From contig NZ_VILB01000013.1 in the NCBI RefSeq assembly GCF_009712035.1, positions 602,426-666,425 of the forward strand: a stretch of 64,000 nucleotides of DNA, written 5' to 3'. The stretch is from Anabaena sp. UHCC 0187. GTDB lineage: Bacteria; Cyanobacteriota; Cyanobacteriia; Cyanobacteriales; Nostocaceae. The position numbers were made by a program, and so were the translations under genes. Positions 422-51,986 of this stretch are shown here, in pieces. The notes under the pieces were generated by a model that made no database searches, was not told where the DNA came from, and worked only from the letters and a program-made list of their open reading frames with translations. Each line of letters begins with the position of its first letter. The stretch's first letter is position 1.

Positions 422-3118
422 ATGAGAATCCTCAAGATCCAAACCTTACGCGGCCCAAACTATTGGAGTATTCGACGGCACAAACTAATTGTTATGCGCC
501 TCGACCTGGAAAACCTTGCTGAAACGCCCTCCAATGAAATACCTGGCTTTTATGAAGGATTAGTAGAGGCACTCCCAAGTTTGGAGGGTCACTATTGCTC
601 CCCTGGCTGTCGTGGTGGGTTTCTAATGCGGGTGCGAGAAGGCACTATGATGGGTCATATAGTGGAACACGTAGCCTTGGAACTCCAGGAATTAGCTGGA
701 ATGCACGTAGGTTTTGGTCGCACCCGTGAAACTGCTACATCTGGAATTTACCAGATAGTGCTTGAGTACCTAAACGAAGAAGCGGGTCGCTACGCAGCCA
801 GAGCAGCAGTCAGGCTATGTCAAAGTATTATTGACCGTAATCGTTATCCCAAAGCCGAACTAGAGCAAGACGTTCAAGACCTCAAAGATTTTTGGCGTGA
901 TGCTTCCCTGGGACCTTCAACAGAAGCGATTATCAAAGAAGCCGAAAAGAAAGGTATTCCTTGGATGCCTTTACCAGCTAGATTCTTAATTCAATTGGGC
1001 TATGGTATCCATCAAAAACGGATTCAGGCCACAATGACCAATAACACAGGCATTCTTGGTGTCGAACTAGCTGGTGACAAAGAAGCAACTAAACGGATTC
1101 TTGATGCCAACGGTGTCCCAGTTCCGAGAGGGACAGTCATCAATTTCTTTGACGACTTGGAAGAAGCCGTTGAATATGTTGGTGGTTATCCTATTGTGAT
1201 TAAACCCTCAGATGGTAATCATGGCCGGGGTATCACCATTGATATCCGCAACTGGGAAGACGCAGAAGCCGCTTATGAAATGGCTAGACAGGTTTCTCGT
1301 TCAGTTATCGTGGAAAGATATTATGCGGGACGAGATCATCGGGTATTGGTAGTTAATGGCAAGGTAGTTGCTGTAGCGGAGAGAATCCCCGCCCATGTCG
1401 TGGGTAATGGCAAATCTACGATTACAGAACTAATTGAAGAAACAAACCAAGATCCCAATCGCGGTGAAGGTCATGATAATATCCTCACGAAGATTGAACT
1501 AGACCGTACCAGCTATCAACTGCTAGATAGACAAGGGTACACCATCAATAGTGTGCCACCCCAGGGAGCAATTTGTTATCTGCGGGCCACAGCCAACTTG
1601 AGTACAGGTGGTAGTGCTGTAGATCGCACAGACGAAATTCACCCGGAAAACATTTGGTTGGCACAACGGGTAGTGAGAATAATTGGGTTAGATATTGCTG
1701 GTATAGATATTGTAACTTCCGATATTAGCCGTCCTCTACGAGAAGTAGATGCGGTAATTGTCGAAGTCAATGCTGCCCCTGGGTTCCGAATGCACGTCGC
1801 CCCCAGCATTGGTATCCCCCGCAATGTGGCTGGTGCGGTCATGGATATGTTGTTCCCCAATGAACAATCTAGCCGAATTCCGCTGCTCTCGATTACAGGT
1901 ACAAACGGCAAAACCACCACTACCCGCTTGTTAGCACATATATATAAACAAACAGGTAAAGTCGTCGGTTATACAACTACAGATGGTACTTATATCGGTG
2001 ATTTCTTAGTAGAATCAGGAGATAATACTGGACCCCAAAGCGCCCATGTCATCCTCCAAGATCCGACTGTAGAAGTAGCGGTATTGGAATCCGCTCGCGG
2101 TGGTATTCTGCGCTCTGGGTTGGGTTTTGAAAATGCTAATGTGGGTGTGGTATTAAATGTATCTGCTGACCATTTAGGCATTGGGGATATAGATACCATT
2201 GAGCAATTAGCCCATCTTAAAAGCGTCGTCGCTGAAGCTGTCTTCCCTGATGGTTATGCCGTTCTCAATGCCGATGATCATCGTGTTGCGGCTATGGCAG
2301 AGAAAACTAAGGCCAATATTGCCTACTTCACCATGAATCCCGATTCGGAACTGGTACGGAAACATATCCAAAAGGGTGGAGTGGCCGCAGTTTATGAACA
2401 TGGTTATCTATCAATTGTCAAAGGTGATTGGACACACCGCATCGAAAGAGCAGAAAATATTCCCTTGACAATGGGTGCAAGAGCGCCATTTATGATTGCT
2501 AATGCTTTAGCAGCTAGTTTGGCAGCATTTGTCCAGGATGTGACCATTGAGCAAATTCGCGCTGGTTTAAGAGGCTTTCGGGCTTCCGTGAGTCAAACCC
2601 CAGGACGCATGAATTTGTTTAACTTGGGTAAATACCATGCTTTGGTAGATTATGCCCACAATGCGGCTAGTTATGAGGCTTTGGGTTCATTTGTTCGCAA
2701 TTGGACAACGGGACAACGCATTGGTGTAGTTGGTGGTCCTGGCGATCGCCGTGATGAAGACTTTGTTAACCTGGGTAAGTTATCAGCAGATATCTTTGAC
2801 TACATTATTGTTAAAGAAGATGATGATACCAGAGGCAGACCGCGAGGTTCGGCTTCAGATTTGATTATTCAAGGTATTACCCAGATTAAGCCTAATTACC
2901 GCTTTGAATCAATTCTGGATGAAAGCACAGCTATTAACAAAGCCTTAGATATGGCTCCTGATGGTAGTTTGGTGGTAATTTTGCCAGAAAGCGTCAATAG
3001 GGCTATTAAGTTAATTAAGGTGCGCGGTGTCCAGGAAGAAATACAGCCACAGCACTCAAATAACAACGATTCCCAAAATGGGATAGCACCTTCTTCTGTC
3101 GCTAATACGCTGATTTAG
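422..3118 (+). CDS. cphA: Cyanophycin synthetase
   Basis: This enzyme makes the multi-L-arginyl-poly-L-aspartate storage polymer from Asp and Arg with ATP, without ribosomes. The N-terminal domain is followed by an ATP-grasp domain (about residues 220-470, with GGYPIVIKPSDGNHGRG) that activates the aspartate backbone. A Mur-ligase-like domain follows, with P-loop GTNGKTTTTR near residue 491. The frame could begin at a TTG (392), but ATG 422 gives the family-typical start MRILKIQTLRGPNYWSIRRH and 898 aa, close to the usual length of about 900. It sits behind cphB, so synthesis and breakdown genes are probably co-transcribed. A terminator hairpin follows the stop. Confidence 0.97.
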   Translation: MRILKIQTLRGPNYWSIRRHKLIVMRLDLENLAETPSNEIPGFYEGLVEALPSLEGHYCSPGCRGGFLMRVREGTMMGHIVEHVALELQELAGMHVGFGRTRETATSGIYQIVLEYLNEEAGRYAARAAVRLCQSIIDRNRYPKAELEQDVQDLKDFWRDASLGPSTEAIIKEAEKKGIPWMPLPARFLIQLGYGIHQKRIQATMTNNTGILGVELAGDKEATKRILDANGVPVPRGTVINFFDDLEEAVEYVGGYPIVIKPSDGNHGRGITIDIRNWEDAEAAYEMARQVSRSVIVERYYAGRDHRVLVVNGKVVAVAERIPAHVVGNGKSTITELIEETNQDPNRGEGHDNILTKIELDRTSYQLLDRQGYTINSVPPQGAICYLRATANLSTGGSAVDRTDEIHPENIWLAQRVVRIIGLDIAGIDIVTSDISRPLREVDAVIVEVNAAPGFRMHVAPSIGIPRNVAGAVMDMLFPNEQSSRIPLLSITGTNGKTTTTRLLAHIYKQTGKVVGYTTTDGTYIGDFLVESGDNTGPQSAHVILQDPTVEVAVLESARGGILRSGLGFENANVGVVLNVSADHLGIGDIDTIEQLAHLKSVVAEAVFPDGYAVLNADDHRVAAMAEKTKANIAYFTMNPDSELVRKHIQKGGVAAVYEHGYLSIVKGDWTHRIERAENIPLTMGARAPFMIANALAASLAAFVQDVTIEQIRAGLRGFRASVSQTPGRMNLFNLGKYHALVDYAHNAASYEALGSFVRNWTTGQRIGVVGGPGDRRDEDFVNLGKLSADIFDYIIVKEDDDTRGRPRGSASDLIIQGITQIKPNYRFESILDESTAINKALDMAPDGSLVVILPESVNRAIKLIKVRGVQEEIQPQHSNNNDSQNGIAPSSVANTLI

Positions 3119-3143
3119 GAGATTATCCCTTGTTTGTAAATTG

Positions 3144-3176
3144 CCCTCAGACTAATTCATAATTTAAGTCTGGGGG
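3144..3176 (+). terminator. Rho-independent terminator after cphA
   Basis: Arms CCCTCAGACT (3144-3153) and AGTCTGGGGG (3167-3176) pair over 10 bp with one G-T pair, and are followed by TTAATTTTAT. The hairpin lies 26 bp after the cphA stop, between two convergent genes. Confidence 0.75.
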
Positions 3177-3256
3177 TTAATTTTATCGTGATTAAGCTGT
3201 TAAGCAGCTAAATTTAATATTTTGTTTGCAGCCTAGAGTCCTTTTAGTAAGGCTTT

Positions 3257-4363
3257 TTAGCCCGCCTCAAACCAAATGTATAATATACCATATATCATAC
3301 CCCCACCAGCAGCCCAAAAAGGCAGAGAAAACAAGGCAAAGAATATATTTATAGGAAAAGGCCCAGAAAGAGCGCCATGAGTCCAAAACAAAACAAATGA
3401 ATTCCAAGCTATGGCAAATGGAATCAGAACTATGATGATTGGGTGGAATCCCAACGCAGGAATAATAATTTTTAAAGATTCTTCATTTTTTGTGAGTTGA
3501 ATTTTACTACCTGCTGGTTTCCCAACAGGTAAAGCTATGATCTCACTGTATTCTGGATTTTCTAAAGCGGTGAGTGCGACAGTTGCACTAGAAAACCGCT
3601 TTTCTAAACTAGGTTCTGTGATTTGCTGCAACCACTTAACAAAACTGGGACTAATATTAGCAAATTGCTGAAATTGAATGCGAAAATCCTTTTGTGGTAA
3701 ATCCGCTGGGTTAGTCCCTGTCACCAAATAAATCAGAGTTGCACCTAAACTATAAAGGTCAGAAGCGGGGACGGTACGCCCTCCAAACTGTTCCTGTGGC
3801 ATATAACCATAAGTGCCAACAACAGTTCTTGTCCCTGCTTCTGCGGCTAAAACGGTTTGGACTGAACCAAAATCTATTAAATAAACTAAACCGACACTAT
3901 TACCAGAGCGCTCTCCTAATAAAATATTGCTAGGCTTAATATCACGGTGGACAACTGGTGGATTTAACTCATGTAAATATATAAGAATTTCTAAAACCGC
4001 TTTGGCAATTTCTTGGACTTCAATTTGTGTAAATTTCCTCCCCGCTTGTAAATATTGTTCTAGAGTTTGGGCTGGAATATAAGTCTGAACAAGGGCAAAA
4101 CCTTTATATGTAGAGGAATTGATCTCAAAATAGTCTAAGTAAGCAGGAATATGGGGATGTGATAAAGATTTTAATGTTTGAGCTTCTCTCTCAAATAATT
4201 TGAGATCATCCCATTCAAAATCACTACTAAAAGCAAGTAACTTGACAATTACCGATTTTCCAGTTACTAAATCAGTAGCTAAGAAAGTCCTTCGGCCGGC
4301 TTTTTTGCCTAGCTGTTGTTGAACTTCATAGCGATTAGCTAATATTTCCCTATTCATCATCAT
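3257..4363 (-). CDS. Membrane-anchored Ser/Thr protein kinase (Hanks type)
   Basis: The 368-aa protein has a eukaryotic-like kinase domain over about residues 10-270. Visible motifs are a degenerate glycine loop (LGKKAGRRTFLA), the catalytic loop VVHRDIKPSNILL, IDFGSV as the DFG motif, and TVVGTYGYMPQEQF in the activation segment. The C-terminal 90 residues carry two hydrophobic segments (IIIVLIPFAIAW and FFALFSLPFW), so the kinase probably sits in the membrane facing the cytoplasm. There is no PASTA or other obvious sensor domain. Three ATG codons are stacked at the start (4363, 4360, 4357), so the exact initiator is uncertain. It is convergent with cphA and its substrates are unknown. Confidence 0.9.
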   Translation of the reverse strand: MMMNREILANRYEVQQQLGKKAGRRTFLATDLVTGKSVIVKLLAFSSDFEWDDLKLFEREAQTLKSLSHPHIPAYLDYFEINSSTYKGFALVQTYIPAQTLEQYLQAGRKFTQIEVQEIAKAVLEILIYLHELNPPVVHRDIKPSNILLGERSGNSVGLVYLIDFGSVQTVLAAEAGTRTVVGTYGYMPQEQFGGRTVPASDLYSLGATLIYLVTGTNPADLPQKDFRIQFQQFANISPSFVKWLQQITEPSLEKRFSSATVALTALENPEYSEIIALPVGKPAGSKIQLTKNEESLKIIIPALGFHPIIIVLIPFAIAWNSFVLFWTHGALSGPFPINIFFALFSLPFWAAGGGMIYGILYIWFEAG

Positions 4364-7761: not shown

Positions 7762-8535
7762 ATGAAATGGTTCTCAAAGAAGGAAGAACAGCCAATCCAA
7801 CCTTCTATCCAGGAACACCAAGCCCAAAAGTTGGCACTACTTGGCACTCAACTAGCTTCACTACGGCAGGAAAAGAATTTAACTCTTGACGAGTTAGTTC
7901 AACTAACCAGAATTCCTCGACGACTTTTGCAAGCGATTGAAGAAGGTAACTTAACTGACTTACCAGAACCAATTTATATTCAAGGCTTAATTAGACAGTT
8001 TGCAGACGCTTTAGGAATTCAAGGAGGTGAATTTGCCAGTCACTTTCCCATTGGTCCACAATCAGTAGGTTTTCAATCTCCTGGGAAAGTCCAAAGCATT
8101 CCTCAATTACGTCCGGTTCATCTTTACCTGCTTTACATTTTTCTGGTTTTCTGTTCTGTTAATGGTTTATCGCAGTTATTGAATAATGCTACATTGCAGG
8201 CAAATAACAGCAAATTTCAACCCAGCACGGAAGCGCAGTTATCTAAACAAGAACCAAGTAATAAAGTATTAGTCAGCAGTAAAAAGATTAATTCTGTACA
8301 AGTGGGTGTTACCTTAAAAGCCTCATCTTGGATTAGTGTGGTTGCAGATGGCAAAATAGCCTTTGAGGGAGTTTTGCCAGAAGGTTCTAGTCGCACATGG
8401 AAAGCCACTCAGCAACTAACAGTAAAGACTGATAATGCTGGTGGTGTGTTAATGAGCGTAAATCAGCAGACAGCCAAGGAAATGGGAGAACTTGGGAAAA
8501 CTCAAGAAATCCAGATTGCTGCCAAACTGAATTAA
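7762..8535 (+). CDS. RodZ-like HTH membrane protein
   Basis: The N-terminal half has a Cro/C1-type HTH of the RodZ type (QLASLRQEKNLTLDELVQLT and IPRRLLQAIEEGNLTDLPEP, residues 30-75). One membrane segment follows (LYLLYIFLVFCSVNG, about residues 117-131), then a C-terminal extracytoplasmic beta domain resembling DUF4115 (VTLKASSWISVVADGKIAFE). RodZ links MreB filaments to the elongation machinery; members in cyanobacteria are assumed, not shown here, to act in cell shape. ATG 7762 follows GGAGTAAAGG 16 bp after the pseudouridine synthase stop, so the two genes probably form an operon. Confidence 0.8.
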   Translation: MKWFSKKEEQPIQPSIQEHQAQKLALLGTQLASLRQEKNLTLDELVQLTRIPRRLLQAIEEGNLTDLPEPIYIQGLIRQFADALGIQGGEFASHFPIGPQSVGFQSPGKVQSIPQLRPVHLYLLYIFLVFCSVNGLSQLLNNATLQANNSKFQPSTEAQLSKQEPSNKVLVSSKKINSVQVGVTLKASSWISVVADGKIAFEGVLPEGSSRTWKATQQLTVKTDNAGGVLMSVNQQTAKEMGELGKTQEIQIAAKLN

Positions 8536-8705
8536 ATAAAAAATCATTAGATTTTGGATTTTGGCTTACTGTCATATCCGACTGATTTTGCCAAAAAATG
8601 GAGGTTTAGGTAAACTAAGCCAACCTCGAAATAAATGGACAAAACATCAGGTGTTGAGTGTGGATTAAGCCAAAATTGCCAATCTCAAATCCAGAATTGT
8701 CTGAT

Positions 8706-10214
8706 TTATTCCTGTCTAGGAGCGCGTCCATAACGGAAAGTGAGAGTTTTTAAGCGATCGCTTAATTCTTGCGTTAATACACCTGATTGGTAACGCCATT
8801 CCCAATTTCCTTCCGCTGTACTGGGAAAATTCATGCGGGCATCAGTTCCCAAACCTAATACATCCTGCAAAGGCATAATCGCCTGATTGGCGATAGAACT
8901 TAAAGCTAATCTAATTAAATCCCAGTGTATACCATCAGGACTGATACAACCCAAATACAACAATAAATTTTGCTTTTCGTAATCATTCGCAGCATTAAAC
9001 CAGCCTAGAGTTGTATCATTGTCGTGAGTACCAGTATAAACTACGGCATTACGAGTGTAGTTAAATGGTAAAAATGGATTACCGGGATCAGAACCAAAAG
9101 CAAACTGCAATACCTTCATTCCGGGAAACTCAAACTGATCTCGCAGTGCTTCCACTTCTGGGGTAATGATCCCCAAATCCTCCGCCAAAACAGGTAACTT
9201 ACCTAAATTCTTTCTAATAGTCTCAAACAAGGCTAAACCAGGGGCTTCTACCCATTCGCCATTCATAGCAGTTGTTTCTCCCTGGGGTACAGCCCAATAA
9301 GCCTCAAAACCCCGGAAATGATCAATGCGAATTATATCCACATAATCCAGCATCGCCTCAAAGCGTAATATCCACCATTTAAAGTCTTGTTTTTGTAATT
9401 CTTCCCAGTTATAAACCGGATTTCCCCATAATTGACCAGTGGAGCTAAAGTAATCCGGTGGAACTCCCGCCATTAAAGCCGCTGCTCCCGTTTCCTCATC
9501 TAAAGCAAAAATCTCAGGATTCGCCCACACATCAGCACTATCATGGGCTACATAAATGGGGATATCACCAATAATATCTATACCGTTCTTATTAGCATAT
9601 TTTTTCAGTTCTGACCACTGCCGGAAGAACTCATATTGGACAAACTTGTAATAAAAAATCTCCTCTTTTAACTCTTGTGTAATTTTTGCTAAAGCTGCTG
9701 GTTCACGCTTTGCTAATTCCGGTTGCCAATTATGCCAACCTTTACCATTTTGGGTATCTTTAATCGCCATAAATAGGGCATAATTATTTAACCAATAGCC
9801 TTTATCAGCACAAAACTTAGCAAAAGCTTGTTTTTGAGTCGAATTTGCTTTGGTTTTAAAATCCTCACAAGCTTTAATCAGTAGATTGACCTTAATAGGG
9901 ATAACTTCGTTAAAATCTACTTTATTTACCGAAAAATCTGGTAAATCAGCCAAATCTTCCGGAATTAACAAACCCTCATCTAGCAACTTGTCGGGACTAA
10001 TCAAAAAGTAATTTCCCGCCATTGCGGAGTAGCACATATAGGGGGAATTACCATAACCAGTTGGTCCTAGAGGTAAAACTTGCCAATATTGCTGATGACT
10101 ATTTTTGAGAAAATCAATAAACCGATAAGCTTCCAAACCCAAATCTCCAATACCAAAACGACTGGGGAAGGAACTGGGATGCAGTAAAATACCACTTGAT
10201 CTAGGAAAAGGCAT
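8706..10214 (-). CDS. malQ: 4-alpha-glucanotransferase (amylomaltase)
   Basis: GH77 disproportionating enzyme of 502 aa, normal for the family, which transfers maltosyl or longer glucan units during glycogen metabolism. The sequence opens with RSSGILLHPSSFPSRFGIGD, the standard start. The nucleophile region IIRIDHFRGFEAYWAVP, the acid/base region LPVLAEDLGIITPEV and the third carboxylate region VYTGTHDNDTTLGW are all intact. It is transcribed alone, on the opposite strand to both neighbours. Confidence 0.96.
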   Translation of the reverse strand: MPFPRSSGILLHPSSFPSRFGIGDLGLEAYRFIDFLKNSHQQYWQVLPLGPTGYGNSPYMCYSAMAGNYFLISPDKLLDEGLLIPEDLADLPDFSVNKVDFNEVIPIKVNLLIKACEDFKTKANSTQKQAFAKFCADKGYWLNNYALFMAIKDTQNGKGWHNWQPELAKREPAALAKITQELKEEIFYYKFVQYEFFRQWSELKKYANKNGIDIIGDIPIYVAHDSADVWANPEIFALDEETGAAALMAGVPPDYFSSTGQLWGNPVYNWEELQKQDFKWWILRFEAMLDYVDIIRIDHFRGFEAYWAVPQGETTAMNGEWVEAPGLALFETIRKNLGKLPVLAEDLGIITPEVEALRDQFEFPGMKVLQFAFGSDPGNPFLPFNYTRNAVVYTGTHDNDTTLGWFNAANDYEKQNLLLYLGCISPDGIHWDLIRLALSSIANQAIMPLQDVLGLGTDARMNFPSTAEGNWEWRYQSGVLTQELSDRLKTLTFRYGRAPRQE

Positions 10215-45279: not shown

Positions 45280-45480
45280 GATTTTTATTAGTATATTTGA
45301 ATATAATGCACTTTGACACTCTCAGGGCTAAAGCCGCTGAGATTCTTTGATCAAAGACATGACTTGCTCAGACAGGATTACTCCAACCTGAGTAGAGGAC
45401 TCATCTCCTAAAGCGTTACTCATGTCTAGCATGAAGGTTTCGGTATGCCCTACCGTACCCAATCCCCGACGAAGGATATT
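45280..45480 (-). ncRNA. Candidate omega-RNA overlapping the tnpB 3' end
   Basis: Inferred from the known layout of TnpB elements: the guide scaffold overlaps the tnpB 3' end and the right-end hairpin (45321-45341), with the guide reading the flank just beyond it (below about 45321). The ends are estimates and no RNA data exist here. Confidence 0.35.
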
Positions 45481-46659
45481 TCTAGCTGCATTTTCATCTC
45501 TATCCATGACACAACCACACCGACAAACGTGGGTGCGAATAGATAGAGTTTTCTTCACAATTTCACCACAGCTAGAACATTCCTGGCTAGTATATTGCGG
45601 ATTAACCGCAACTGTGAGCTTCTTGAACACCTGACCAAAGTATTCCAGCCAGACACGAAACTGATACCAAGATGCGTCGTTAATAGACTTAGCTAAACAA
45701 TGATTTTTCACCAAATTTTTAATTCTCAAATCTTCATAAGCTATCAAGTCGTTAGACTGAACTACGCACCGTGCTAACTTCACAGCATGGTCTTTACGTT
45801 GCCTACTTATTTTGAGATGGCGTTTTCCTAAAATCTGTCTAGCTTTGCCCCTATTTTTTGAACCTTTTACCTTTCTGGAAACACGACGTTGCGAACGTTT
45901 AAGAACCTTTTCTCCAATACGGAGAAATTTGGGATTCTCAATCATTACGCCCTCAGAATCGGTGTAGTATTCTTTCAAACCTACATCCAACCCAATTGTA
46001 TTTCCTGATAGTGCTATATCTTCTTGACGGTTTACATTAATACAAAATTGAACATAAATACCGTCCGCACGTTTTACCAATCTTACCCGTTTAATTTGGT
46101 TAATTTGGTAAAAATGCAGATCACGAGTTCCTTTAAGTTTTAATCGCCCAATCCCTTTTTTATCGGTGAAGGTGATAAACTTACGGTCATCGGTTAGTTT
46201 CCAGCCAGAAGTTTTGTATTCGATAGAACGACAATCTTTCTGGAATTGAGGAAAGCCCTTTTTACCGGAAGCCCCTTTTTTGCAATTATCATAAAACCGA
46301 GAGATAGAAAACCATGCTCGTTCTGCACTGGCTTGTCTTGCCATTGAATTGAGTTCATTTGCAAAGGGGAATTTAGCAGCAAGTACGGCACAATATTTGT
46401 TTAAATCATTTTTGCCTGTGTTTTTCACATCTATCCATAGCCGAATACAGCTATTGCGAATAAACTGTGCAGTCCGAATTGCATCACCTACTGCTTTTAT
46501 TTGCGCTGACTTCCCGTAAGCTTTAAACTCAAAAACAAGCATCTTTTTCCCTCCCATTTTGATGCTACTCTGTCTAAAATAAAATAGCAAGCCCAGTAGA
46601 AAGATGACTGCGACTAAAGTCGCAGGAGTCGCTTATATCTCAGCCCTAAAGGGACTGAG
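45321..46659 (-). mobile_element. IS605/IS1341-type element carrying only tnpB
   Basis: The left end (upstream of tnpB) has two hairpins: CTGCGACTAAAGTCGCAG (46608-46625) and CTCAGCCC-taaa-GGGACTGAG (46639-46659). The right end has CTCAGGGC-taaa-GCCGCTGAG (45321-45341). The two outer hairpins are near mirror images with the same TAAA loop. There is no tnpA within the region, so it depends on a transposase in trans. Exact ends beyond the hairpins cannot be fixed. Confidence 0.75.
45328..46542 (-). CDS. tnpB: TnpB RNA-guided nuclease of IS200/IS605 family
   Basis: A 404-aa protein, normal for TnpB. The RuvC-like nuclease residues appear intact: Asp in NTIGLDVGLKEYYT, Glu in LIAYEDLRIKNLV, and Asp in MDRDENAARNIL. 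The zinc ribbon is CSSCGEIVKKTLSIRTHVCR followed by CGC. The ATG at 46542 (MLVFEFKAYGK) is preferred over two upstream starts because TnpB proteins begin close to this strand. The TAG stop lies in the loop of the right-end hairpin, where omega-RNA scaffolds begin. TnpB uses such an RNA to cut DNA next to a target-adjacent motif. Confidence 0.93.
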   Translation of the reverse strand: MLVFEFKAYGKSAQIKAVGDAIRTAQFIRNSCIRLWIDVKNTGKNDLNKYCAVLAAKFPFANELNSMARQASAERAWFSISRFYDNCKKGASGKKGFPQFQKDCRSIEYKTSGWKLTDDRKFITFTDKKGIGRLKLKGTRDLHFYQINQIKRVRLVKRADGIYVQFCINVNRQEDIALSGNTIGLDVGLKEYYTDSEGVMIENPKFLRIGEKVLKRSQRRVSRKVKGSKNRGKARQILGKRHLKISRQRKDHAVKLARCVVQSNDLIAYEDLRIKNLVKNHCLAKSINDASWYQFRVWLEYFGQVFKKLTVAVNPQYTSQECSSCGEIVKKTLSIRTHVCRCGCVMDRDENAARNILRRGLGTVGHTETFMLDMSNALGDESSTQVGVILSEQVMSLIKESQRL

Positions 46660-49972: not shown

Positions 49973-50425
49973 TCAAACTTCATTATTCCTGGATTTTTGA
50001 CGGGTGTTGATGACTTTCCCCCTTTCTTTCAGAACTCTTCGGAGTCTGTCAGCACTCAAGTAAACTTGTCGCTCAGATCCTAGCTTCTCGGCTAGTTGTT
50101 TAGAGCTATAAGTGTGAGGTTCTTGAAATAGGCAGTTTTCTAGATATTCTAAATCATCTTCTGAGTACCGGGGTTTTCCTCCTCGACCTGGAGCATCCCA
50201 TAATCCTGCTAAACCCATTTTTTCCCAACGATGTAGGGTCTGACGGACTGTAGAAATTGCCCAGTTTAAACCTTGAGCAATTTCCTCGTTTTTTAAGCCC
50301 CGCGCGTTCAATAGTAGAACTTGAGCGCGGTCTTTAGTTCGTTGAGGAACGTCCTTGGCTTTTCTCAATTCTTCTAAAGTTAGCTTTTCCTCGTCAGTTA
50401 AAAAAATTCTTAGTCGGCATCCCAT
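49973..50425 (-). CDS. IS630-type HTH transposase half (orphan)
   Basis: A 150-aa protein with the helix-turn-helix part of IS630-family transposases: LTDEEKLTLEELRKAKDVPQ, then EEIAQGLNWAISTVRQTLHR and GLAGLWDAPGRGGKPRYSED. In cyanobacterial IS630 elements this is orfA, normally followed by a DDE orfB via a frameshift. Downstream (49.86-49.97 kb) no DDE domain is present, so the element is truncated or the HTH has been retained as a solitary gene. No clear terminal inverted repeats were found. Cannot transpose by itself. Confidence 0.8.
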   Translation of the reverse strand: MGCRLRIFLTDEEKLTLEELRKAKDVPQRTKDRAQVLLLNARGLKNEEIAQGLNWAISTVRQTLHRWEKMGLAGLWDAPGRGGKPRYSEDDLEYLENCLFQEPHTYSSKQLAEKLGSERQVYLSADRLRRVLKERGKVINTRQKSRNNEV

Positions 50426-50742
50426 AGGCGTTTTACTTTGCTTTGATTAATCTATTTGGTATACTAATCTGTATTATCGCTCCTATACTCAAAATCAAAG
50501 TATATAGTAGCACTCTACATTTAGATAAACCACAGGAATTTTAGTGGCTTTAGTGTAGCCGTAAACATTCTATGAAATATTTTTTAATCTTGTTAAGTAT
50601 ACCATCATACAATAATAACCCAAGTTGCTAGTTATCTAAATTGAGGTTAATTATGGGAATTACTGCCTGTTCTCTCTTTTCTTCACTAGCAACTTACGTT
50701 AGTAGTTATAATATTTTTTATGTATTACTTGAAGACTTGAAG

Positions 50743-50855
50743 CAAAAAAAAGGTTTGGTTATAGTACCAAACCTCAATAATTGCTGTGCTTAACAACGTA
50801 CTCAATTAATTTAGTGCTACTTGCCTGACAGATCATCTTCCTATAGGATGTGTCC
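50743..50855 (-). ncRNA. Candidate small RNA unit 1 of tandem family
   Basis: On the minus strand a conserved head (complement of CATCTTCCTATAGGATGTGT, 50834-50853) is followed about 60 nt later by a terminator hairpin. The arms AGGTTTGGT/ACCAAACCT (50751-50774) are followed by a U-run (A-run 50743-50750 on plus). The length of about 112 nt equals the other two units. Promoter and ends are inferred. Confidence 0.5.
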
Positions 50856-51004
50856 AATTTTCCCTAAAGATGATAAAGCAGAATATACAGTAGCTTTCAG
50901 TGGTCAGCGGTCAGCACCACATCTTTGTTGGTGCGGCACTCTGTAATCAAAATATTGACACTACACATAGTAATTTGTATAAATACTTCCTGCACTCCCT
51001 CAAC

Positions 51005-51115
51005 ACAAAAAAGGCTTGGGTGTTAGCCAAGCCTTTATATATACCAGGTGTTTACCATATATAGCTACTTTAAACCCTATTTTATTCCTATTCATCTTCC
51101 TATGAGGTGTGTACA
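51005..51115 (-). ncRNA. Candidate small RNA unit 2 of tandem family
   Basis: Head: complement of CATCTTCCTATGAGGTGTGT (51093-51112). Terminator stem: AAGGCTTGG/CCAAGCCTT (51011-51035) with a U-run from the A-run at 51006-51012. The stem sequence differs from unit 1 yet pairs perfectly, which is compensatory change and supports RNA function. The body between head and hairpin is not conserved. Confidence 0.5.
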
Positions 51116-51251
51116 AATTTCAGAAAGTCTGATATGGACGATAGGTATGGAAATTTTAACTTGGGTGGTAAATAGGAGAAAGGGTCAGGGTTAAAGGCTT
51201 TCTCTAGGCGTTTTCTTTTTTGCTGTTCTGGAAAGAACCCCAAAAATCATC

Positions 51252-51282
51252 AAAAAAAAGACCCTGAAATTATTTTCAGGGT
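51252..51282 (-). terminator. Additional minus-strand terminator in the small-RNA array
   Basis: ACCCTGAAA (51261-51269) pairs with TTTCAGGGT (51274-51282), and an A8 run (51252-51259) gives a U-run on the minus transcript. No conserved head lies upstream on the minus strand, so this could end a degraded fourth unit. Confidence 0.7.
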
Positions 51283-51406
51283 ACATACACGTTTTTCAGG
51301 CATTAATAAAATTAAGACTACTCAATCTTAAAAAATATTTCTACTACCTAAAGTAGAATTAATTGAGATATTTATGCTTTGGATGAATCACAAGGTACAT
51401 TGATAT

Positions 51407-51518
51407 AAAAAAGGTCTAGCCTCATAGCTAAACCCTCATAGAAAGCAGTTATTCGACACACCAGAATTAATGTAAATCTACTTTTATTTCTCTGCATCTT
51501 CCTATGGAGTGTGTTTAC
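51407..51518 (-). ncRNA. Candidate small RNA unit 3 of tandem family
   Basis: Head: complement of CATCTTCCTATGGAGTGTGT (51495-51514). Terminator stem GGTCTAGC/GCTAAACC (51413-51434, one mismatch) with an A-run at 51407-51412 giving a U-run. The length matches units 1 and 2. Confidence 0.5.
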
Positions 51519-51986
51519 TTATCCATGAACATGATATGAACTCAACTATTTAAAATTAATTAAAGCTGTATTTTTTTCTTCTCGCTTTATTGCTGGTTAT
51601 TTAATTATCTAATTATAATATGAATTATTACTTATTGATATAAGTAAGTAGTTACACTTAAGTAGCTAAGAAGAGTCATTGTTTAGACATTTAGTTAATA
51701 TGTTTATTTTTAGTAAAGTTCTTGCAGTGTAAGCTTTTTAGGTTTTTCAAGCTATAAATATAAATGTATTTTAGGTTATTTAAAGTCTTCTTTATATTTG
51801 GATGAAGAAAATACAAAAACTTTATCTAAGTAGATGAAAATTTTCGTATACTGGGATTGTAGCTTAAACAACTAAATGTAATACTAGTAATCGTAGTGTT
51901 CCCAGACTACTAGATGACTAAATAAAAAAAGTTCAGTTCTACCGACAGTCCTAATACATCACTCAAAAACTAACAGGGGTAAAAAC
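51519..51986. other. 468-bp leader region upstream of the PEP-CTERM gene
   Basis: AT-rich, no coding frame. It probably holds the promoter of the PEP-CTERM gene, and an AGGGG ribosome-binding site precedes its GTG. No further copy of the small-RNA head was found. Confidence 0.4.

Follow-up and report, generated by a model that had tools for sequence, protein, structure and literature searches.

NsiR1 (RF02399) is a tandemly repeated, HetR-dependent small RNA encoded upstream of hetF and transcribed specifically in heterocysts. As described in PMC9045159, it is about 60 nt long and present in 12 tandem copies, which have individual promoters with DIF1 and whose versions have partly different targets. 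For Nostoc sp. PCC 7120, Table 1 of Brenes-Alvarez 2016 (PMC4734099) gives another small RNA, of 51 nt, with its start at 4547237r; according to the same paper this transcript is detected when nitrogen starvation is prolonged and when growth is advanced, its start rests on 8 reads together with primer extension and a Northern blot, and the HetR-dependent NsiR8, of 171 nt, starts at 4547556r. By our inference, the 51-nt RNA belongs to the Rfam family RF02596 (cyano_het_sRNA), which we call type A throughout.

The locus analysed here lies in the window, by which we mean the whole stretch of 64,000 nt from Anabaena sp. UHCC 0187. At curated thresholds Rfam gives no match in the window; at permissive thresholds RF02596 matches two of the units described below, B (32.2 bits) and C (26.6 bits), both under its gathering score of 35.7, and does not match D or X. 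The RF02596 body GTTGTTATGCACTGG is not found in the window with up to 2 mismatches. Type A is present in the same genome at a separate locus (G000:C11:70562-70617), where it passes the RF02596 cut-off with 75.2 bits. It has the same promoter boxes as the window units, with a spacing that agrees within 1 nt, the same size and the same type of terminator, and its body is related to that of B (GTTGTTATGCAC in A, GTTGTTAAGCAC in B), whereas the window units, unlike type A, stay below the cut-off and have bodies that differ in sequence. Elsewhere, a type B orthologue (locus L145, 2959-3011) does pass the cut-off, with 37.6 bits, and Rfam annotation can therefore mix two sibling types.

Sibling units in the window

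An earlier note on this DNA had described three minus-strand units that share a head and end in terminators, and we find all three where it had placed them. The exact pattern of the 20-nt head (the complement of CATCTTCCTATRRRGTGTGT) has three matches in the 5.1-Mb genome, all at this locus, and allowing one mismatch adds two sites, one of which is the promoter of the type A copy. In a repeat search the shared heads came out as families of 43-47 nt with three copies each, and head and terminators are visible in the alignment. Within 50600-51700 there are four terminator-like sites, all on the minus strand, as against 0.5 +/- 0.6 in shuffles.

All units are read on the minus strand. In unit D, the promoter boxes (51495-51536) consist of a TATCAT box followed after 16 nt by the head ACACACTCCATAGGAAGATG (51495-51514), a putative -10, TACATT (51469-51474), lies 20 nt after the head, a spacing kept in 20/20 D units, and the predicted sRNA D (51404-51463) comprises the body CTGGTGTGTCGAATAACTGCTTTCTAT and a terminator (stem 51410-51437). 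Unit C has a TATCAG box, again 16 nt from its head ACACACCTCATAGGAAGATG (boxes 51093-51134, head 51093-51112), a putative -10, TAAAGT, assigned by the spacing rule (51067-51072), and sRNA C (51004-51061) with the body ATATATGGTAAACACCTGGTATATATA and a terminator (stem 51010-51036). Unit B shows a TATCAT box and, after 16 nt, the head ACACATCCTATAGGAAGATG (boxes 50834-50875, head 50834-50853), a putative -10, TAAATT, by the same rule (50808-50813), and sRNA B (50743-50803) with the body GAGTACGTTGTTAAGCACAGCAATTAT and a terminator (stem 50750-50775). B, C and D are, in trimmed form, the first, second and third units of the earlier note. Their promoter boxes score 59.0 (B), 53.2 (C) and 35.0 (D) with a matrix of 42 positions whose 46 seeds include the window's own units; a single mononucleotide-shuffled version of the window reaches -16.4 at best. 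The RNAs would start at about 51463 (D), 51061 (C) and 50802-50803 (B) and, less surely, at 51307 (X). All the units look non-coding, in agreement with the note.

The fourth terminator, taken in the note as the possible mark of a decayed unit, is present (51253-51282), but decay does not describe what precedes it, since the body TTAATGCCTGAAAAACGTGTATG is common to 23 distinct sequences and occupies the same array position in them. The predicted sRNA X (51253-51307; stem 51261-51282) consists of this body and the terminator, its start being uncertain by several nt; the unit includes a stretch resembling a -10, and the RNA would measure about 50-55 nt. Its head TTCTACTTTAGGTAGTAGAAATA (51336-51359, identified by alignment and found at a single place in the genome) resembles the heads of the other units only loosely, and we read it, from position only, as a diverged form of the common head. 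X itself is read as a conserved, divergent sibling on the basis of its position, size and layout only.

Orthologous types and their distribution

Thirty loci of other genomes were fetched by the head alone (L004-L033, the best-ranked 30 of a longer list of head matches), and 26 of them have the same layout and one of a few recurring bodies. The other four (L004, L016, L020 and L021) carry no recurring body and are apparently chance matches to the head. The body types found are A (GGGATGTTGTTATGCACTGGATTTATA), B (the window's GAGTACGTTGTTAAGCACAGCAATTAT), C (in the window ATATGGTAAACACCTGGTATATATA), C2 (the type C body but with CTTGG), D (the window's CTGGTGTGTCGAATAACTGCTTTCTAT), E (TTGGTGTAGTAAATGCTTGGTATATATA) and X, together with a looser type F (about ATGTCTG..TTAAGCACTA).

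We collected 184 distinct units (A 81, B 24, C 17, D 20, C2 19, E 14 and F 9), each chosen for having a T-run, a -10-like box and a body that matches its type with few mismatches, so that identities and spacings measured on them are inflated. Across B, C and D units compared without gaps, mean column identity is 0.98-0.99 in the body (0.98 in the 20 D units), a value partly due to construction since units were picked by body, the head-picked 30 loci being the unbiased support. The other parts have lower values (-10, 0.82-0.96; head, 0.75-0.87; spacer, 0.65-0.76; flanks, 0.43-0.54). The bodies, which the earlier note had taken to diverge, are distinct orthologous types, each nearly invariant across genera (F more loosely so), and are the most conserved part among orthologues.

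A covariance search was run with a model, R1, that spans promoter and RNA and was built from 67 units of other genomes, with no unit of the window among them. In the window, R1 scores 118.2 bits for C (E 5.2e-22), 106.6 bits for B and 93.5 bits for D (E 1.2e-16); the whole genome has four strong matches, namely B, C, D and the type A copy on contig C11, and the next best has an E-value of 0.005. In the window's family, 131 of the 208 genomes match R1 and 77 have no match, under stricter filters by which weak matches are lost. An order-wide sample of 291 genomes gave 26 with a match, all 26 in the window's own family. Searches by other means also found homologues of the units among relatives: with one mismatch allowed, the head occurs in 132/217 family genomes (a reversed control pattern in 8/217), and RF02596 in 127/208. 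The exact type A core is present in 61 named stretches, including Nostoc, Anabaena, Nodularia, Cylindrospermum, Sphaerospermopsis and Komarekiella, and among 16 genomes of the window's genus the 16-mers of sRNA B and sRNA C each have exactly one copy in every genome. This is a real, conserved family of predicted sibling sRNA genes of Nostocaceae.

Terminators and folding

The earlier note held that the terminator stems differ in sequence but still pair, as expected of a selected structure, and 60 units (24 of B, 17 of C and 19 of D) bear this out: pairing is kept and compensatory changes are seen. In the 9-pair terminator helix, 96.5% of cells are paired, compared with 90.1 in shuffles, and 52 cells are changed on both sides, compared with 17.2. 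Four helix pairs show compensatory change, a number reached by 50/500 shuffles. For the X stem, 92.9% of cells are paired and 11 cells are double-changed (3.5 in shuffles); its three double-changed pairs are reached by 58/500 shuffles, and its number of pair types by 250/500. The consensus fold has pairs within the terminator only, and folds of single sequences add weak pairs inside the bodies. Folding z-scores are -3.8 (B), -1.9 (C) and -2.3 (D) for the trimmed RNAs and -1.0, -1.3 and -2.3, respectively, for the 112-nt versions.

Probable promoter boxes and the start of the RNA

For the RNAs, which the earlier note took to be about 112 nt long, a size of about 55 nt is likelier, since the head lies upstream of the start published for sibling A. 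The identity of that sibling can be approached through NsiR8, whose start at 4547556r and length of 171 nt (PMC4734099) put its end 149 nt before the start 4547237r. Rfam places NsiR8 (RF02593) and RF02596 next to each other in locus L054, and an NsiR8-like end lies upstream of type A on the same strand in 51 of 90 distinct contexts, as in L034, L036, L041 and others, the search having extended 3 kb upstream and less in short loci. From this end to GGGATG there are 148-149 nt in five of the 51 contexts, all from genus g53 (Anabaena-like and, by matching sequence, including Anabaena azotica and A. subtropica). In 44 further contexts this distance varies between 104 and 590 nt, the remaining two being unmeasured. 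In the window's own genome (L127, on C11), the NsiR8-like end is 105 nt upstream of type A. From the first G to the stem end, type A measures 52 nt in five cases and 53 nt in one, among six, which fits the published 51 nt. Taking spacing, adjacency and size together, sRNA 4547237r is very probably type A (RF02596), starting at the first or second G of GGGATG, with the spacing match found only in the presumed closest kin of PCC 7120. Given their frequent adjacency, type A and NsiR8 may also be linked in regulation.

With the start at GGGATG, the head would occupy about -52 to -33 relative to a mapped start. Lying upstream of that start, it is probably promoter DNA rather than RNA, and each RNA would probably be about 55 nt long, formed by a body of 22-28 nt and the terminator. 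The distance from TATCAG to TAGGAAGATG is 26 nt in 165 of the 184 units, and a -10, found in 177 units, follows the head after 20-21 nt in 175 of them, a constancy favoured both by choosing the box nearest 20 nt and by having selected units for a -10-like box. The consensus of the -10 is TANATT, and we read ATGANC, which closes the head, as a sequence able to act as a -35.

Order of the array and its surroundings

The order D-C2-X-C-B-E-F is unbroken in 21 loci, i.e. the window and 20 fetched regions that were chosen from head and RF02596 matches. This count leaves out hits that lack a T-run or lie on the minority strand; in it, each of the 21 loci misses at least one member, and L135, showing one unit, is uninformative. 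One locus (L131) has all seven members if a C unit without a clean T-run is included, another (L137) has a C2-like body in the place of C, and looser matching yields a few extra, scattered candidate hits.

The window's own array reads D-X-C-B and appears to be a reduced copy of the conserved array. In another genome of the genus, G058, C2 lies between D and X, where insertions split it between body and terminator, and the text that follows the terminator of D in the window resembles the text that follows the terminator of C2 in G058. This resemblance suggests that C2 is missing from the window through a deletion between the terminators of D and C2. The insertions in G058 (L147, about 2880-3270) are two inserts, similar to each other, with GGTGGGCAATGCCCACC palindromes, and they resemble small non-autonomous repeat elements. 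The array can also split, as certain members of the genus (e.g. G045) carry D and C2 a long way from C and B.

Two other arrangements were observed. One locus (L134, G010) has a D-X-C-E array twice, at 2743-3707 and 8009-8973, about 5.3 kb apart, as if duplicated, and in two small genomes (G176 and G177, 3.8-4.1 Mb) the units are scattered on the chromosome, partly in divergent orientation, and form no array. Two ORFs that recall mobile elements are found near the array in the window. An ORF on the minus strand that adjoins it (49973-50425) has the helix-turn-helix domains HTH_32 and HTH_23, which we take to be of the kind found in IS630-like transposases, and is probably part of an insertion sequence; further away, another minus-strand ORF (45328-46590) encodes an IS605 OrfB/TnpB-like protein with a Cas12f1-like TNB domain.

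Possible targets

Co-regulated, trans-acting sRNAs with separate targets are the likeliest function; layout and conservation fit base-pairing sRNAs under one activator. We searched 16 genomes of the genus for antisense sites of one 15-16-mer each of A, B and C, allowing one mismatch. No target was established in this search, most hits being the sRNA genes themselves; for B, the gene itself is the only site. Nine one-mismatch sites of A, in six of the 16 genomes, were rejected as targets, all of them being inside ORFs of the opposite strand. For C, besides the C2 genes, there are one intergenic-looking site in G053, a C2-like 16-mer in the window's own genome (C16:2976), which has neither head nor terminator and occurs by chance, and, in G044 and G054 (L223 and L230), a site with one mismatch that lies within an Hsp20 gene (Pfam PF00011) in the sense orientation. 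The Hsp20 site, seen in two of the 16 genomes, is only a lead for C. A shared neighbouring gene was also considered as a clue to function and discarded, the largest protein clusters covering just 6 of the 21 array loci, whose flanks are short.

Proposed explanation and its competitors

The explanation that we favour, with reasonable though not full confidence, is an array of sibling sRNA genes that have their own promoters (TATCAG, head and -10), give RNAs of about 55 nt, answer to one activator and act on separate mRNA targets. In the promoter of each gene, a TATCAG box would be followed by the head, which spans about -52 to -33 and reaches into the -35 region, and then by a -10 of the form TANATT; the resulting RNA of about 55 nt would carry a type-specific body of 22-28 nt at its 5' end and stop at an intrinsic terminator. 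A single putative activator that binds TATCAG and the head would switch on all the sibling promoters together, and the bodies would go on to base-pair with separate sets of mRNAs, one set per body, in the manner of trans-acting sRNAs. The anatomy, orthologous types, order, distribution, terminator covariation and promoter spacing were obtained in this analysis, and a published transcript, of 51 nt with its start at 4547237r (PMC4734099), exists for sibling A only, with which it is very probably identical. For B, C, D and X the starts are predicted, and the activator and the base-pairing are likewise deduced. On a wider reading, which we entertain but lean slightly against, the genes would form a Nostocaceae sRNA regulon of eight siblings, seven in the ordered array and one apart, with a bespoke common promoter that is found almost only on the siblings in the genome examined, so that one signal would release a fixed panel of different target-recognising RNAs, possibly including internal antagonists (D against B).

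One may also consider that the RNAs are about 112-130 nt long and start just upstream of the head, with TATCAG/TATCAT as their -10, in which case the head would be an RNA domain, perhaps for protein binding or as a seed, and the 51-nt RNA of type A a processing product. TATCAT does resemble a -10 and always stands 16 nt from the head, the conservation of the head is unusually strong for a -35 region alone, and the published start of type A could result from processing of a longer RNA whose own start is close to the TATCAG box. Nevertheless, we consider this unlikely, given both the start and the 51-nt Northern size published for type A (PMC4734099), and given that a second -10-like box follows the head at near-constant spacing, with the invariant body beginning right after it, whereas by eye no clearly conserved -35 is present upstream of TATCAG. 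Folding is a weak argument here: B and C stand out more against shuffles when trimmed than at 112 nt, but D has a z-score of -2.3 either way. The siblings might instead act partly on each other, with D as a sponge or antagonist that pairs with B, and less with A and F, in a self-buffering array. The duplex of the B and D bodies is the strongest of 36 pairs (-18.0 kcal/mol), D is also the best partner of A and F, and the duplex has -14.5 to -18.4 kcal/mol in 18/18 loci for which both bodies were collected; these loci are no independent test, however, since the bodies hardly vary, and dinucleotide shuffles reach the B-D value in 55 and 58 of 5000 (about 1.1%), which is not significant after 36 comparisons. 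We regard such mutual action as improbable.

Less probable still is that the units are tiny-peptide genes or leaders and not regulatory RNAs. The sequence of X allows the reading ATG CCT GAA AAA CGT ..., and cyanobacterial sRNAs that encode peptides do exist (ncl0160, PMC4734099), but by our reading the types have no common reading frame, synonymous changes are nearly missing in the conserved stretches, and no ribosome-binding site would fit before the ATG of X if its RNA starts a few nt upstream. As to a remnant of a mobile element or phage, the transposase-like helix-turn-helix ORF beside the array (49973-50425) and the insertions that split C2 in G058 are what could suggest it. Yet the window units are single in the genome, an exact scan of viral contigs with the head and X patterns gave 0 matches, and order and bodies are kept across genera; we found no sign that the heads derive from a transposon, a source that the earlier note had kept in mind, and we give this origin hardly any credence.

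Comparison with known small RNAs

Homologous, putative short RNA genes with their own terminators, and with promoters deduced from spacing, occur in one genome (the four strong R1 matches), as is characteristic of sibling sRNAs. In the literature covered, with supplementary tables and subscription papers outside its scope, nothing was found on the array, on types B-F and X or on the shared promoter, and Table S3 of PMC4734099 could hold some of the siblings as single entries. As far as these searches show, the family is largely undescribed, one sibling (type A) having been known previously. The SigJ J-Box promoter of hormogonia (extended -10 GGGaAtacT, as given in PMC6495340) was compared by eye and dismissed, having no resemblance to the head or the -10. 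NsiR8 (RF02593) has a different sequence from the window units and, as reported in PMC4734099, a length of 171 nt and HetR dependence. Yfr1 shares with them the short RNA and an invariant, presumably unpaired stretch, but its sequence is another one and it occurs in all 89 cyanobacterial genomes of PMC4734099.

The closest likeness, drawn already in the earlier note, is to NsiR1, and it holds for layout without extending to membership. The NsiR1 cut-off (RF02399, 39 bits) is not reached in the window, where the best score is 21.8 bits, on X. TCCGGA, the form of DIF1 that the note had looked for, is absent from 50601-51700, as it had said, and a scan of the plus strand of this interval found one TCCCTA, a DIF1 variant, at 50861; no hetF is present among the seven flanking ORFs scanned. 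Elsewhere in the window's genome NsiR1 has seven matches, six of them over the cut-off (G000 C8:17528-17910, C9:56-397 and, on the minus strand, C5:319983-320037), and one copy lies on another contig, far from the rest. The window family is not NsiR1.

The analysis turns one little-studied Rfam family into about eight apparently co-regulated siblings, whose order is conserved across many filamentous cyanobacterial genera and whose putative activator seems to control small RNAs rather than proteins. Bodies that are near letter-identical across genera imply strong partners, and start sites, bodies and promoter boxes are now given as testable predictions. Like NsiR1, the window units would be RNAs of about 60 nt in tandem copies with one promoter each. 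The NsiR1 siblings have partly different targets (PMC9045159), as is proposed for the window units; whereas the copies of NsiR1 are mostly identical or slightly divergent, the units of the present array are distinct types, with promoter boxes of another kind.
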